Positions 16,360-22,963 of a stretch of DNA of 64,000 nt are shown here, piece after piece. Every line of letters begins with the position of its first letter. The first letter of the stretch is position 1. A program made the translations under genes and the position numbers. The stretch covers positions 62,001 through 126,000 of the forward strand of contig CANLEH010000004.1 of the NCBI GenBank assembly GCA_947489665.1, given 5' to 3'. The notes under the pieces were generated by a model. It did no database searches and was not told the origin of the DNA. It worked only from the letters and a program-made list of their open reading frames with translations. Origin of the DNA: an uncultured Roseicyclus sp. (GTDB taxonomy: Bacteria; Pseudomonadota; Alphaproteobacteria; Rhodobacterales; Rhodobacteraceae).

Positions 16360-16704
16360 TCAGAAGGCATAGGCTTCAACCCGGTTGCCGTCGGGATCGA
16401 ATACCTGAACCCGTGTGGGCCCGGTCGGCTGAAATTCTGCCTCTTCAACCTGGTCTCGGGCGAATGCTTCCCGCAATTCCAGAACCTCGGCTGAACTTGA
16501 GGCTTGGAAGCCGAAATGGTTGGTGCGCGGCAAATCACCGGGCACGTCCCCCTCGCTCAAAGCCAAAAGCCCGCCGCCCTCTCCGGACAGGATGAGAAGG
16601 TGATCATCCTCGTGCAAACGTTGGTCCAATCCGAAGTATCGGCTGTAGAACGCCGCCGAAATTTCGCGGTCCGATACGGTCAATGCGACGTGATCCAGGC
16701 GCAT
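16360..16704 (-). CDS. VOC-family (glyoxalase/dioxygenase fold) protein inside the paa operon
   Basis: A 114-residue single-domain vicinal-oxygen-chelate protein: MRLDHVALTVSD at the N-terminus, an NHFGF strand in the middle and QVFDPDGNRVEAYAF at the end, the usual betaalphabetabetabeta repeats. It lies between paaA and paaB, nine bases from the paaA stop, and is clearly in the same transcript. The role is unknown. Detoxification or rearrangement of a reactive epoxide- or oxepin-derived by-product of the pathway is an inference from location only. Confidence 0.8.
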   Translation of the reverse strand: MRLDHVALTVSDREISAAFYSRYFGLDQRLHEDDHLLILSGEGGGLLALSEGDVPGDLPRTNHFGFQASSSAEVLELREAFARDQVEEAEFQPTGPTRVQVFDPDGNRVEAYAF

Positions 16705-16713
16705 GATTTCACC

Positions 16714-17691
16714 TTATTCCGCGGCCATTTGCGACGCGCGTTTCTTGGCAGCATGGGCCATCAGCCCTTCCCGAACCCAAGCCCCGTCGTCCCACGCCTT
16801 TTGGCGGGTCGCGATGCGCTCGGCGGAGCAGGGGCCGTTGCCTTTGAGGACCTCGAAGAATTCGTCCCAATCGGGCTCGGCGAAATCGTAGCCACCTTTT
16901 TCCTCGTTCCACGCCAGCGTTTCATCCGGGACGGTAAGGCCTAGATATTCGGCTTGTGGAACGGTCTGGTCGACAAATTTCTGGCGCAGCTCGTCATTGG
17001 AATTCATCTTGATCTTCCACGCCATGCTTTGCGCGGAGTGTTTGGACTCCGCGTCCGACGGGCCGAACATCATCAGCGCCGGGAACCAGAAGCGGTTGAG
17101 GGCGTCTTGGGCCATGCGTTTTTGCGCAGGTGTGCCGGCGCACATCTTCATCATGATGTCGAAGCCCTGCCGTTGGTGGAAGGATTCCTCCTTGCAAATC
17201 CGTATCATAGCGCGCGCATAGGGGCCGAAGGATGTGCGTTGGAGCGGTACCTGGTTCATGATCGCGGCGCCATCAACAAGCCAGCCGACTGCGCCCATAT
17301 CGGCCCATGTGAGCGTTGGATAGGCGAAGATGGAGGAGTATTTCATGCGGCCATCCAGCAGCATTTCCGTCATCTCATCGCGGGAAACGCCAAGGGTTTC
17401 GGCGGCGCAATAGAGATACAAACCATGCCCGGCCTCATCCTGCACCTTGGCCAAAAGGATCGCCTTGCGCTCCAGCGTGGGGGCGCGGGTGATCCAGTTT
17501 CCTTCGGGCAGTTGGCCGACAATCTCGGAATGGGCGTGTTGGCCGATCTGGCGGATCAGAGTCTTGCGGTAGCCTTCGGGCATCCAATCCTTGGGCTCGA
17601 TCTTTTCGCCTGCGTCGATGCGGGCCTGGAAGGCGGCGAGCTTTTCAGGATCGTCCTGCGTCGCTTCGGATTTGACCATTTGTGCGTACAT
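16714..17691 (-). CDS. paaA: Phenylacetyl-CoA epoxidase catalytic subunit PaaA
   Basis: A 325-residue diiron monooxygenase subunit that epoxidises the aromatic ring of phenylacetyl-CoA. Ferritin-like iron-ligand motifs are visible: [29 protein letters not shown] and [11 protein letters not shown]. The N-terminal substrate-site region [20 protein letters not shown] is characteristic. It is the first gene of the paaA-VOC-B-C-D-E operon. The ribosome site AGGTGA overlaps the first copy of an operator array (17699-17710), so repressor binding would directly cover the 5' end of the transcript. Confidence 0.95.
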
Positions 17692-17698
17692 GAGATGC

Positions 17699-17810
17699 GT
17701 TCACCTGAGCAAAACTGCGTTCATCTGAGCGGGTATTTTGAGAAAACTGCGTTCAGTTGAGCAGATTTCGACCCGTTCATGCGAACGCATCGTTATCCGT
17801 TCACGTGAAC
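17699..17810. promoter_or_regulatory. Array of five palindromic operator copies upstream of paaA
   Basis: Five 12-base sites share GTTCA-N2-TGAxC or a close form: GTTCACCTGAGC (17699-17710), GTTCATCTGAGC (17719-17730), GTTCAGTTGAGC (17751-17762), GTTCATGCGAAC (17775-17786) and GTTCACGTGAAC (17799-17810). The last is a perfect palindrome. Start-to-start spacings are 20, 32, 24 and 24 bases. The copy nearest paaA contains its Shine-Dalgarno sequence. The arrangement implies cooperative binding by a dimeric regulator. Candidates in the window are the PaaX-family and MarR proteins; which one binds is not shown by the sequence. Confidence 0.75.
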
Positions 17811-17846
17811 GCTTTTAGCAGATCGGCGTGGGTCGGTCCATTGAAA

Positions 17847-17887
17847 TGTTACACAGAAACGTGCGCGAGGAAATTCTGTAACGCATT
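17847..17887. promoter_or_regulatory. Second paa-associated inverted repeat
   Basis: TGTTACA (17847-17853) and TGTAACG (17877-17883) form a widely spaced dyad between the five-site array and the end of paaK. The right arm extends to GTAACGCATT (17878-17887), identical to a word upstream of the thiolase gene. It could be a distal operator for the paaA promoter. Confidence 0.4.
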
Positions 17888-17905: not shown

Positions 17906-19210
17906 TTAGGCGCGATTGTCCACCACGCGACGTGCCTTGCCCTGGCTCCGTTCAACCGCGCCGGGTTCGGCGACGATTACTTCGACGGAGATCCCGACGA
18001 CCTCTTTGATGCGATGGCTGAGTGTGGCGGCTTGCACGGCGCGGGCCTCTCCATCCGCTGCGCCGGGCAGGCTTTCGACATGGACCGTCATCGCATCCAT
18101 GTGGCCGTCCTTGAGCAGTTCGATTTGGTAGTAGGGGGCGAGGCCGTCGACTGTCAGGACTTGTTCCTCGATCTGGGTGGGGAAGACATTAACGCCGCGC
18201 AGGATGATCATGTCGTCGGAGCGGCCGGTGATCTTCTCCATCCGCCGCATAGACCGTGCCGTGCCGGGCAGAAGCCGGGTCAGGTCGCGGGTGCGGTAGC
18301 GGATGATCGGCAGGCCCTCTTTGGTGAGGGTGGTGAAGACGAGTTCGCCCATTTCGCCGTCTGGCAGGACTTCGCCGGTCTGTGGGTCGATGATCTCGGG
18401 GTAGAAATGGTCTTCCCAGATGTGCAGACCGTCTTTCGTCTCGACGCATTCGTTGGCAACGCCGGGGCCCATGACTTCGGAGAGGCCGTAAATGTCGACG
18501 GCGTGCATGTCGAAGGCGCTTTCGACCTCGGCGCGCATCTTGTTGGTCCAGGGTTCGGCGCCGAAGATGCCGACCTCCAAGCTGGAGGAGCGTGGGTCGA
18601 GGCCCTGGCGGTGATACTCTTCGAGGATGTTGAGCATGTAGGAGGGCGTGACCATGATCGTGGTCGGCCGAAAATCTTCTATAAGAGTGACCTGCCGCGC
18701 CGTCATGCCGCCGGAGACGGGGACGACCGTGCAGCCGAGCGCTTCGGCCCCGTAGTGTGCGCCTAGGCCGCCAGTGAAGAGGCCGTAGCCATAGGCGATG
18801 TGGACCATATCGCCGGGGGCGGTGCCGGAAGCGCGCATGGAGCGGGCGACCATGTTGCCCCACATCTCAACGTCGCCCTTGGTGTAGCCGACAACGGTGG
18901 GTTTGCCGGTTGTGCCCGAAGAGGCATGGATGCGGGCGATTTGATCGCGGGGGACGGCGAAGAGGCCGAAGGGGTAATTGTCGCGGAGATCGGATTTAAC
19001 GGTGAAGGGGAACTTGGCGAGATCGGCGAGGCTCTGCAGATCGTCGGGATGGACGCCCTTTGCGTCGAACTGGGCGCGGTAGAAAGGGACGTTTTCGTAG
19101 GCGTGGGTGAGGGACCATTTCATCCGCTCAAGCTGGAGGCTTGCGATTTCATCGCGGGAGGCGATCTCAATGGGATCGAGCATGTCGCGGGGTGGGGTGA
19201 GGTCTCTCAT
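17906..19210 (-). CDS. paaK: Phenylacetate-CoA ligase
   Basis: A 434-residue AMP-forming ligase that activates phenylacetate to phenylacetyl-CoA. Motifs: the ATP-binding loop ASSGTTGKPTVVGYT (~95-109), the YGLSEVMGPG region, RTRDLTR and GRSDDMIILRGVNVFP near the hinge. Length and these motifs are typical of PaaK rather than of benzoate-CoA ligases. The start ATG overlaps the paaI stop (ATGA). It is followed by about 215 bases of regulatory DNA before paaA, which probably has its own promoter. Confidence 0.95.
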   Translation of the reverse strand: MRDLTPPRDMLDPIEIASRDEIASLQLERMKWSLTHAYENVPFYRAQFDAKGVHPDDLQSLADLAKFPFTVKSDLRDNYPFGLFAVPRDQIARIHASSGTTGKPTVVGYTKGDVEMWGNMVARSMRASGTAPGDMVHIAYGYGLFTGGLGAHYGAEALGCTVVPVSGGMTARQVTLIEDFRPTTIMVTPSYMLNILEEYHRQGLDPRSSSLEVGIFGAEPWTNKMRAEVESAFDMHAVDIYGLSEVMGPGVANECVETKDGLHIWEDHFYPEIIDPQTGEVLPDGEMGELVFTTLTKEGLPIIRYRTRDLTRLLPGTARSMRRMEKITGRSDDMIILRGVNVFPTQIEEQVLTVDGLAPYYQIELLKDGHMDAMTVHVESLPGAADGEARAVQAATLSHRIKEVVGISVEVIVAEPGAVERSQGKARRVVDNRA

Positions 19211-19716: not shown

Positions 19717-21714
19717 ATGCAACGCATTGGAAGCTTCGCAAAAGGCGTCTGGGTTGAGGCCGGGCCAGGAGCGCGACCCATTGCGGATGCGGCAACGGGC
19801 GAGGTGATTGCCGAGGCGGGCAATGACACGCTCGATGTGGCGGGCATGGTGTCCTATGCGCGAGAGGTCGGCGGGCCGGCGCTCAGGGCGATGGATTTCC
19901 ACGACCGGGCGCGGATGCTGAAAGCTTTGGCGCTGCATCTGAATGCGAACAAGCAGAAGCTGTATGATCTGTCGTTTACGACCGGGGCCACGCAGGCGGA
20001 CCATGGGTTCGACGTGGATGGTGGGATCGGAACGCTGTTTGTGTTCGCCTCCAAGGGGCGGCGGGAGATGCCGGAGGGGCATGTTCTGGTCGATGGTGCA
20101 TGGGAGCCGCTGGGCAAAACCGGAGCCTTTGGTGGGCAGCATATTTATACGCCGCGGCTGGGCGTGGCGTTCCACATCAATGCGTTCAACTTCCCGGTCT
20201 GGGGGATGCTGGAAAAGATCGCGCCTGCCTTTCTGGCAGGAGTGCCGAGTATCGTGAAACCTGCGACCGCGACGGCCCATGTGACGGAGCTGTGTGTGCG
20301 GCTGATGCTGGAGGCGGGCGTGTTGCCGGACGGGGCATTGCAGTTGGTGACGGGTGGTGTTGGCGAGGGCTTGGGCGTGCTGGGGCCGCAGGATGCGGTG
20401 ACGTTTACCGGGTCGGCCGCGACGGCTGGTGTGGTGCAAAGCGGGTTGCCGAGAGGCGTGCCGTTCACCGCGGAGCAGGATTCGCTGAATGCGAGTATTC
20501 TGGGGCCGGATGTGACGGTGGAGAGCCCGGAATTCGACATCGCGGTTAAGGAAATCGCCCGCGAGATGACGACGAAAGCCGGGCAGAAATGCACGGCGAT
20601 CCGGCGGGTGATGGTGCCGCAGCCGCTCCTCCAGCCGCTCGTTGATCGGCTATCCTCGCAGTTGTCGAAGGTCGTGGTAGGCGATCCGAGGGAGGCCGAG
20701 ACGCGGATGGGGCCGGTTGTTTCCTTAAGCCAGCGGCGGGATGTGTTTGACAAGGTTGCGGTGATCGCCGGAGAGGCGGAGCGGGTATTTGAGGGTGAGG
20801 TGAATGGCCCGGAAAAGGGCGCGTTTGTGGCGCCGCACCTGTTCGTTTGCAGTGATCCTGATGCAGCTGAAAAGGTTCATGAGACGGAGGCGTTCGGGCC
20901 GGTTTCGACCCTGATGCCCTATCGCGATCTGAGTCATGCCTGCGTGTTGGCGAACCGGGGGGAGGGGTCGTTGGTGGCCTCGCTGATTACCCATTCGGGC
21001 GATGTCGCGCGGGAGGTCGTGCAGGGCATCGGGGCGTGGCATGGGCGGGTTTACGTCAACAACCGGGACTCGGCGAAAGAGGCGACGGGGCATGGTGCGC
21101 CGATGCCGCATCTGACCCATGGCGGACCGGGGCGCGCGGGCGGCGGAGAGGAGTTGGGCGGTATCCGGGCGGTGAAGCATTACATGCAGCGGGTCGCTGT
21201 GCAGGGCTCGCCGGATATCTTGACCGCCGTGACGGGGCGCTATGTGCCGGGCGGGTCGAAGCGTTCCGCCGACGTGCATCCGTTTCAGGTGCGCTTTGGC
21301 GATCTGGAGGTTGGGCGGACTCTGGAGACTGATGCCCGCGAGATCACGCTGGAGGATATCGAGACCTTCGCGCATTTCACGGGCGATACGTTTTACGCGC
21401 ACATGGATGAGGAAGCCGCCAAGCGGAACCCGTTCTTCCCGGGGCGGGTGGCGCATGGCTATCTGATCCTGAGCTTTGCGGCGGGGCTGTTTGTGGAGCC
21501 GAATGAAGGGCCGGTTCTGGCCAATACCGGGCTGGACAGCTTGCGGTTTCTCAAGCCCGTCAGCCCGGGCGACAGCATCCGGGTTCATCTGACGGCGATG
21601 GATAAGAAGTCGCGGAATGAGGACTACGGCGAGGTGCGTTGGCATGCGGATGTGCGCAATCAGGATGATGAGCCGGTTGCGGAATATGAGTTGCTGACGA
21701 TGGTGGCGAAATGA
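19717..21714 (+). CDS. paaZ: Bifunctional oxepin-CoA hydrolase / semialdehyde dehydrogenase PaaZ
   Basis: A 665-residue fusion. Residues ~1-520 form an aldehyde dehydrogenase (NAD-site FTGSAATAG, catalytic cysteine in [11 protein letters not shown], general-base region [11 protein letters not shown]). Residues ~530-665 form an R-specific MaoC-like hydratase ([29 protein letters not shown]). It opens the oxepin ring and oxidises the resulting semialdehyde. The ATG at 19717 follows GGGAGGGG, so the open frame upstream is not used. It overlaps the PaaX-family gene by ATGA. An ALDH partner for the box pathway (BoxD) is absent here; PaaZ helping there is only a thought. Confidence 0.94.
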
Positions 21715-22499
21715 ACGTGATCCCCCTGCAGTCCGACGACCCGGTTCTTGCCCTCGCCAATGCCCTGTCAGAGGCGAGCCCGCTGAAATTGTGGTCTGTG
21801 ATCGTGTCGTGCCTCGGCGATTGCGCGCAGGCGGGGCGGGGCGAGGTCTCTGGCCTGGTCTTGTCGACCCTGGTGGAACGGATCGGGTTGCAGCCGCAGG
21901 CAATGCGGGTGGCGTTGCACCGGTTGAAGCGCGATGGCTGGGTCGATAGCCGACGCGAGGGCCGTGTGGGATTTCATCGGCTGACCGACAGCGCGAAGGC
22001 GCAGACGCGGGCTGTGGCGGACAGGGTCTATGGGGCGCAGGTGGACCTTGCGCCGTGCCGCCTTGTGGGGTTCCCGCCGGACGCGCCGGACGCGCTGGCG
22101 CTCCTGCCAGAAGCCGTTTCGGCTGTGCCGATCTCTCGCAGTTTTGCTTTGGTCTGTGGGCTGGATGTGGATTTGCCGGAGGATTGGCTCGTCGCCGCGC
22201 CCGAGCGCGGCAATTGGCCCGGCTGGGTCCGTGAGGCTCTGGATGAAGCCGCGTGTGAGGCAGAATTTGCGGCACTGGCCAGCGCACTGCCCGCCGTGGC
22301 GGCAGTGCCAGACGATCCGCTTGACCGGTTCGCGTTGCGCGTGCTGGTTCTGCACGGCTGGCGCCGCTTGGTGTTGCGGTCGAACCCGGCGGCAGAAGCC
22401 GCTTTGGGGCTAGACCGCGCTGAGGTGATGTGCCGGACGCGGGTTGCGGAATTGCTGGACGCGCTCGGCCCGGCGCAACCCGATCAGGTTGCGTCTTGA
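21711..22499 (+). CDS. PaaX-family transcriptional regulator
   Basis: A 262-residue protein with an N-terminal winged-helix part (MRVALHRLKRDGWVDSRREGRVGFHRLT at ~65-90) and a C-terminal PaaX-like domain (DRFALRVLVLHGWRRLVLR). PaaX proteins repress phenylacetate genes and are released by phenylacetyl-CoA. It is translationally coupled to paaZ by ATGA, so it would be autoregulated with it. It is the most direct candidate to bind the five-site array before paaA. Its end overlaps the convergent MarR gene by 16 bases. Confidence 0.85.
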   Translation: MNVIPLQSDDPVLALANALSEASPLKLWSVIVSCLGDCAQAGRGEVSGLVLSTLVERIGLQPQAMRVALHRLKRDGWVDSRREGRVGFHRLTDSAKAQTRAVADRVYGAQVDLAPCRLVGFPPDAPDALALLPEAVSAVPISRSFALVCGLDVDLPEDWLVAAPERGNWPGWVREALDEAACEAEFAALASALPAVAAVPDDPLDRFALRVLVLHGWRRLVLRSNPAAEAALGLDRAEVMCRTRVAELLDALGPAQPDQVAS

Positions 22500-22963
22500 G
22501 CGTCCGGGGGCAGAACCATCGGCGCCCGGGCGGCGTCATTGCCGATCTTGGCGACCTTCGCGGCAAGGCGGACGAATTCGCGACGCTCCGCCTCGGACAG
22601 GCCCGGAAGGATATCGTCTTGCAGGGCGCGCACTTCAGGGACGAGGCTCTCGAGCAGCGCGGCGCCTGTGTTGGTCAGGTCGAGGACCATGGCGCGGCGG
22701 TCTTTTTCGTTCCGGCGACGGGTGAGCAGGCCCTTGGCCTCCAACCGTTCCACCACGCCGCCGATGGTCGGGCGGTCATGGGCGATCAAACCGGCCAGCG
22801 TCGCCTGATCAATTCCGGGCGATTTCGACAGGACCGCAAGCGTCGCGAATTGCGGCGCGGTCAGATCATGGCCGAGCGATTTCATCCGGTCTGCAAAGAC
22901 GCTGATCGAGATTTGTTGCAAACGCCGTATCAGATGGCCGGGCATCGTGTAGATTTCAGACAT
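22484..22963 (-). CDS. MarR-family transcriptional regulator
   Basis: A 159-residue winged-helix protein. The recognition region is LTAPQFATLAVL..SPGIDQATLA and the wing is GLLTRRRNEKDRRAMVLDLT, both typical of MarR. It is transcribed away from the TRAP transporter operon, and an imperfect palindrome at 23081-23101 sits between them. It may control uptake of the aromatic substrate. Relatives such as BadR and CouR act in aromatic degradation, but the specific subfamily cannot be assigned here. Confidence 0.85.
   Translation of the reverse strand: MSEIYTMPGHLIRRLQQISISVFADRMKSLGHDLTAPQFATLAVLSKSPGIDQATLAGLIAHDRPTIGGVVERLEAKGLLTRRRNEKDRRAMVLDLTNTGAALLESLVPEVRALQDDILPGLSEAERREFVRLAAKVAKIGNDAARAPMVLPPDAQDAT

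Follow-up and report, generated by a model that had tools for sequence, protein, structure and literature searches.

Some protein-binding palindromes occur in many copies over the replicons: parS, matS and SlmA sites are bound by dimers, are mostly single, and have a deeply conserved sequence. The operator of the regulator RutR, TTGACCANNTGGTCAA, has a core equal to the GACCA-NN-TGGTC core of one class of sites described below (class B). REP sequences are defined by a stem-loop that carries a GTAG (or CGTC) tag on one side (PMC3733652). For phenylacetate regulation, the published PaaX site is TGATTC(N27)GAATCA and the PaaR site ACCGACCGGTCGGTT (PMC9493321); both differ from the array sequence described here.

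The window, a 64-kb stretch (64,000 nucleotides) of an uncultured Roseicyclus genome (G000), contains the paaA gene with a cluster of short palindromes upstream of it. The five 12-base sites reported in a first-pass annotation were confirmed (Table 1), with spacings of 20, 32, 24 and 24 bp between successive starts, and the proximal site contains AGGTGA just upstream of the paaA ATG (− strand), as had been stated. The gene order on the − strand is paaK, array and paaA; the upstream gene is presumably a member of the paaK-like ligase family. A small VOC/glyoxalase-like gene (16360–16704, − strand; weak NCBIfam matches) lies directly downstream of paaA, ahead of the other paa genes. The annotation had also described a graded change of the half-sites along the array. 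The sites do end differently, but this is mostly a trait of the whole family and not a gradient along the paaA array: in class A arrays, a G (TGAGC ending) is present at 24 of 39 copies of site 2 and 21 of 39 copies of site 3, and site 1 mostly ends in TGAAC (34/39). Site 1 at paaA, ending in TGAGC, is atypical for the family. In the sister species G006, a 24-bp unit at the site-4 end is missing and the array at paaA has four sites.

Table 1 Features of the paaA region and regulator genes in the window.
Feature	Position	Strand	Remarks
paaA	16714..17691	-	TIGR02156, E 3e-157
80-bp array core, family register	17691..17770	.	Site 1, 8-bp spacer, site 2, 20-bp T/A-tract spacer, site 3
Site 1, GTTCACCTGAGC	17699..17710	.	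Overlaps likely paaA Shine-Dalgarno (AGGTGA, - strand)
Site 2, GTTCATCTGAGC	17719..17730	.	
Spacer from site 2 to site 3, containing a T-tract and an A-tract (gggtattttgagaaaactgc)	17731..17750	.	Type conserved across family
Site 3, GTTCAGTTGAGC	17751..17762	.	
Site 4, GTTCATGCGAAC	17775..17786	.	1 mismatch to GTTCANNTGARC
Site 5, perfect palindrome GTTCACGTGAAC	17799..17810	.	
-10-like TGCTAAAA	17813..17820	-	DNA ahead of paaA compared across 12 readable Roseicyclus genomes; putative promoter role
-35-like ATGGACC (most relatives TTGGAC)	17835..17841	-	Same 12-genome comparison; putative promoter role
Inverted repeat GTTAC-N25-GTAAC, candidate paa (PaaX-type) operator	17848..17882	-	12/12 readable paaA promoters
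paaK-like phenylacetate-CoA ligase gene (presumed), upstream of array	17906..19210	-	ORF and translation
PaaX-like regulator	21711..22499	+	Only N-terminal part matches TIGR02277, under cut-off
MarR-family regulator	22484..22963	-	Matches below cut-offs of individual MarR models

The array at paaA belongs to a family of arrays that is restricted to this lineage and distributed over the whole genome. Within the window, 21 strand matches to the palindrome pattern (≤1 mismatch) were found against 6.45 expected, and none of 100 shuffles reached 21. In the whole genome, the exact pattern gave 43 + 40 strand matches and the reversed-pattern control 2 + 2. These two comparisons (83 versus 4 in the latter) exclude chance as the origin of the palindrome sites. 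The genome-wide matches fall into about 26 places by our own grouping, most of which share one design in register; a few single matches (e.g. L014, L017 and L018) occur without an array. In total, 44 arrays in G000 and 41 in G006 were examined. An array consists of three to five dyads of the form AAACT-N7-NN-N7'-AGTTT at fixed offsets, commonly 0, 20 and 52; additional dyads are frequent, either at offsets 76 and 100 or at around 91 or 101. Among 82 arrays, a further site (≤2 mismatches) was present at offset 100 in 23, at 76 in 14, at 91 in 8 and at 101 in 12. The T-tract/A-tract spacer between sites 2 and 3 is found family-wide. Arrays were picked by their match to class A, B or C, a selection that may miss other classes.

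Thirty-nine copies from three species were aligned over 80 columns free of gaps, with variation in the two central bases of the dyads. Of the 13 Roseicyclus genomes, G000, G006 and G010 were shown by a covariance model to carry the family, and the remaining ten gave no match at E 0.01; 150 candidates were scored per genome, so the array counts are lower bounds. The 80-bp core at paaA (G000:C4:79691-79770), itself among the sequences used to build the model, scored 80.6 bits. Against 84,980 species genomes, the A/B-type pattern was found in two records only, both from uncultured Roseicyclus (29 and 1 stretches; G000 itself was possibly left out of this set). One class A array of G006 is tandemly duplicated at 101 bp (L038, 1710–1890), and G000 and G001 have a single array there. 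In a partial literature collection, no relevant description of repeats of this kind was found for Roseobacter, Rhodobacteraceae, alphaproteobacteria or Roseicyclus.

The arrays occupy non-coding DNA, mostly beside the 3' ends of genes. The 44 arrays of G000 lie in 19 convergent, 22 co-directional and 3 divergent gene gaps. Compared with 452 gaps (≥30 bp each) taken from 800 kb of G001 (convergent 14.6%, co-directional 58.4%, divergent 27.0%), convergent gaps were enriched for arrays (P 5e-6) and divergent gaps were depleted (P 0.002), with gene calls from a simple codon-score script and background gaps from G001. Convergent gaps make up 19% of the 31 gaps of the window itself. The three-species context count covers 82 arrays (44, 34 and 4), seven late-added G006 arrays being left out. 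Of 88 listed neighbours, 30 were compared with Pfam and 22 of these matched, e.g. a release-factor domain, SufE, a GapR-like protein, pseudouridine synthase, a tRNA synthetase and a helicase; no functional theme emerged. Hairpins resembling intrinsic terminators adjoin some of the arrays, as judged by eye. The excess in convergent gaps, the scarcity in divergent gaps and the lack of a theme among the neighbours indicate that the arrays are not ordinary promoter operators. Their distribution is not that of a promoter regulon, and the 22 co-directional arrays could still precede a gene.

The substitution pattern within orthologous arrays indicates what is being conserved. In eight G000/G006 array pairs, changes were found at 7 of 240 half-site positions, 19 of 48 NN positions and 58 of 352 spacer positions. 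In 13 pairs of the same class, invariant half-site positions were changed at 4/234 and NN at 29/78 (0.37). In three genes compared between these two species, four-fold degenerate codon sites differ at 0.38. As the NN value nearly equals that of the four-fold sites, NN drifts neutrally. The half-sites are under strong purifying selection. The left and right halves do not covary: the score is 0.123 versus 0.124 for shuffled halves, and 285 of 500 shuffles equalled or exceeded it. This argues for a protein reading each half independently. Half-sites so nearly invariant, together with a neutral NN and the missing covariation, fit recognition by a dimeric DNA-binding protein and not RNA hairpins, and the arrays apparently serve as landing sites for such a protein.

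Two recognition words, class A (GCGTTCA) and class B (GTGACCA or GCGTCCA), are present in both G000 and G006. The arrays are mostly coherent in class: when the class B half-sites among six were counted in the 44 arrays of G000, 16 arrays had ≤1, 23 had ≥5 and 5 were mixed, so that 39 of 44 fall at one end or the other. Of 41 G006 arrays, 30 had ≤1 class B half-site and 5 had ≥5; the share of class B is thus 23/44 in G000 versus 5/41 in G006. TGACCANNTGGTCA occurs 14 times in G000, 12 of them within arrays by position, and 0–3 times in the other 12 genomes. For 37 of the G000 arrays, an array is present at the same locus in G006, with the same orientation in all 37. At these loci, 17 pairs are of the same class (12 A and 5 B), 16 are switched and 4 are intermediate and left out of the comparison of same-class and switched pairs. 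Fifteen of the switched loci are B in G000 and A in G006, and one is the reverse.

Pairs of the same class share their spacer and NN sequence (difference 0.266 versus 0.426 for shuffled partners; 0 of 5000 as low). The 16 switched pairs barely do (0.421 versus 0.452, P 0.013), which indicates that array sequence was exchanged at a fixed address. In-place point mutation is rejected as the cause of the class switch, since the NN difference is 0.667 in switched pairs versus 0.37 in same-class pairs. A recent spread of class B from one master copy is likewise rejected (NN difference 0.58). Flanking DNA is slightly less alike at switched loci than at same-class loci (identity 0.827 versus 0.856, P 0.03, 15 and 13 pairs); arrays may therefore have been imported from an unsampled lineage through homologous recombination. 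A mechanism for the exchange of switched arrays is needed and was not found.

A third class was found in a third species, G001, which contains 14 CTCCCRNNYGGGAG sites against 0 for the control and 0–1 in the other genomes. These class C arrays have the word CCTCCCG, spacings of 20 and 43 (L172 deviates from them) and the consensus AAAnTCCTCCCG-NN-CGGGAGGAGTTT. A class C model (R2) detected 12 strong arrays in G001 and marginal matches only in G007 and G000. When these 12 arrays and L172 were checked by their flanks, each of the 13 fell at a locus where G000 or G006 has an A or B array. Their orientation was that of the A/B counterpart in 11 of 11 tested, with the left edge offset by 0–13 bp in ten and 21 bp in one. 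Twelve further A/B loci were located in 800 kb of G001: three had another motif, 11-bp direct repeats of CTGTAGTTnnn, and nine had no visible array (two of the nine align poorly and three show terminator-like hairpins by eye), suggesting that the array addresses are not essential. In the same 800 kb, these tandem repeats occur at four places (L236 ~17050, L242 8121, L246 14303 and L254 13555). Three of the places correspond to loci holding A or B arrays in G000/G006, and the fourth matched no fetched locus. A 16-bp palindrome, TGCTCACGCGTGAGCA, occurs at five places in this DNA (L238, L259, L262, L267 and L269) and is absent from loci L001–L112 and from the window. Searches for clumped 8-mers in the 800 kb of G001, and for other dyad pairs with the same half-site, gave no lead.

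In a three-gene tree, G001, G000 and G006 form a group (support 1.0) and G010 joins G009. All four arrays examined in G010 are entirely or largely of class A and stand at shared loci. G010 has an intact class A array at L074 and its sister species G009, 91% identical over three genes, has none. The left flanks of these four G010 loci are at background identity (0.775–0.838; several of the right flanks align poorly), and a recent lateral transfer of the loci was rejected on this ground.

Our preferred reading, held with slightly better than even confidence, is that the phased arrays are bound by dimeric helix-turn-helix proteins and act as a block, roadblock or insulator at the ends of transcription units. 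Such a dimer would contact the outer AAACT and the inner, variable 7-mer, and successive dimers would assemble next to one another along the array; each recognition class would have its own protein or protein form. The bound array would then be a stable nucleoprotein block at the transcription-unit end, and a locus may be reassigned to another class by exchange of its whole array. The ordered occupancy proposed in the first-pass annotation survives in part: the phased multi-site layout and the strong half-site constraint are as expected of such a binder, but the link to phenylacetate did not hold.

RutR is an attractive type of binder because its operator core is that of class B. In 11 of 13 genomes, a site with this core (one copy of TGACCANNTGGTCA) is located within 1 kb of rutR; the words of classes A and C differ from it. 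At L090 (929–1549 and ~1680–1700) and at L037, a RutR-like TetR gene (PF08362) has TTGACCATTTGGTCAA close by, with the same core as class B sites, and an array separates the two. The RutR-like gene is present as a single copy in all 13 genomes, with or without arrays, and RutR copy number was rejected as an explanation of the arrays.

Alternatively, the arrays might be non-autonomous mobile repeats of the REP or MITE kind, spread to targets at gene ends by a transposase or recombinase that binds the dyads, their conservation reflecting the need for mobilisation. We consider this possible but rather unlikely. Dozens of intergenic copies in four of 13 Roseicyclus genomes (three by the A/B model and one by the C model, with marginal matches in G007 and G000), array-less versions of the same loci in relatives, the exchange of whole arrays at the same loci and the tandem duplication in G006 are what such an element would leave. 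Against it, half-sites are frozen between orthologous copies that diverge elsewhere, and the NN of different copies is close to random (0.58–0.71 as mean pairwise difference), which argues against a recent burst from one master. Orientation, moreover, was kept at every shared G000/G006 locus and every tested class C locus. The A/B pattern had no match in the viral contig collections used, nor had the paaA array, the only query there, in the plasmid collections; within these collections and queries, a phage or plasmid origin was rejected. No match to RAYT (PF01797) was found in the array-bearing genomes G000, G001, G006 and G010; two of the 13 congeners have weak matches, one of them over the cut-off. 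By inspection, neither the GTAG nor the CGTC tag, as defined in the REP literature cited above, stands at the dyad ends of the 39-copy family consensus, and the same 39 copies show none of the covariation between dyad halves expected of a conserved stem-loop. By the tests made (RAYT, tag and stem covariation), identity with REPIN/RAYT elements is rejected. If the arrays are mobile nonetheless, they constitute a family of repeats set apart from REPINs by these three features.

A role of the palindromes as RNA, with hairpins for transcription termination or for the stability of mRNA 3' ends, is very improbable. It would account for the location at gene 3' ends, the A-tract before and the T-tract after the dyads, and one terminator-like match inside the paaA array (0.8 expected in shuffles). 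The lack of covariation noted above stands against it, as do the flanking pairs of sites 2 and 3, which are mostly broken (columns 27/42 and 59/74 are unpaired in 29 and 32 of the 39 copies, respectively), and the central NN, which would make a 2-nt loop. No Rfam family reached its gathering score, the best hits being 18.4 and 16.8 against gathering scores of 49 and 60. An RNA hairpin or terminator was thus rejected on the halves, on Rfam and on terminator-like matches at about shuffle level.

The DNA ahead of paaA was compared among 13 Roseicyclus genomes, of which 12 were readable and one had no located paaA. All 12 have GTTAC-N25/26-GTAAC (N31 in one) in the paaA upstream DNA, followed within a few bases by GGAC (mostly TTGGAC, here ATGGAC) and then by a -10-like TCTGnTA block; a consensus promoter scan of the paaA upstream region found no promoter. 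The array sits between the -10-like block and the start codon. The distance from GGAC to the ATG is 48–86 bases in the 10 array-less genomes, 144 here and 120 in G006, so the array is probably located in the transcribed leader of paaA. With protein bound to it, the array would hinder transcription or translation beyond the actual paa promoter. Since the 10 array-less congeners keep the GTTAC/GTAAC...GGAC block, the inverted repeat is the better candidate for the paa operator, and its layout resembles that of the published PaaX site (PMC9493321). The place upstream of paaA and the PaaX-like and MarR genes of the window had suggested an operator of a phenylacetate regulator (PaaX, MarR or some other) that grew by local duplication. 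This reading is hardly credible and largely refuted. At least 44 arrays exist genome-wide, 19 of them between convergent gene ends, and the neighbours scanned are unrelated. Ten of the 12 readable genomes keep the promoter block and lack the array, an absence of the kind that the first-pass annotation had set as a refutation. The PaaX and PaaR sites, finally, are different sequences (PMC9493321). A scan restricted to paaA would have misread the arrays as a local operator.

More broadly, we tentatively suggest, at well below even confidence, that fixed intergenic addresses carry phased multi-dyad arrays read by fast-evolving DNA-binding proteins, and that the arrays are swapped as units for others with a different word while their orientation is kept. 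Classes A and B would thereby have been assigned differently in two sister species (16 of 37 loci), and a third species would use class C, with yet another spacing, at these addresses. If the arrays are protein addresses at gene ends, they would constitute a site-array system that marks or insulates transcription units, whose recognition code is reassigned between close species while many positions stay. The co-evolution of DNA-binding proteins with dozens of target arrays could then be tested in close strains.

Several known systems share part of this organisation. Like parS, matS and SlmA sites, the arrays are dimer-type palindromes in many copies over the replicons and are not linked to promoters; those sites are mostly single and conserved, whereas here arrays are found whose word varies between close relatives. 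Operators of the RutR type have a dyad with a free 2-bp centre and a core matching class B, but the arrays avoid divergent promoters, the words of classes A and C differ, and RutR is single-copy in all 13 genomes. The PaaX and PaaR operators share with the paaA array its position upstream of paaA, and the sequences do not match. REP/REPIN-RAYT systems (PMC3733652) are likewise short palindromes in many intergenic copies, often downstream of genes, with several classes per genome and species-specific sequences. The arrays differ from them in their phased 26-bp dyads with a free central dinucleotide, in a DNA-type constraint that lacks stem covariation, in having no detected RAYT gene, and in the exchange of classes at fixed loci in the same orientation. 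Judged from these sequence comparisons, the arrays would be a variant of genome-wide intergenic binding repeats, the unusual part of which is the change of class of a whole array at a conserved address.
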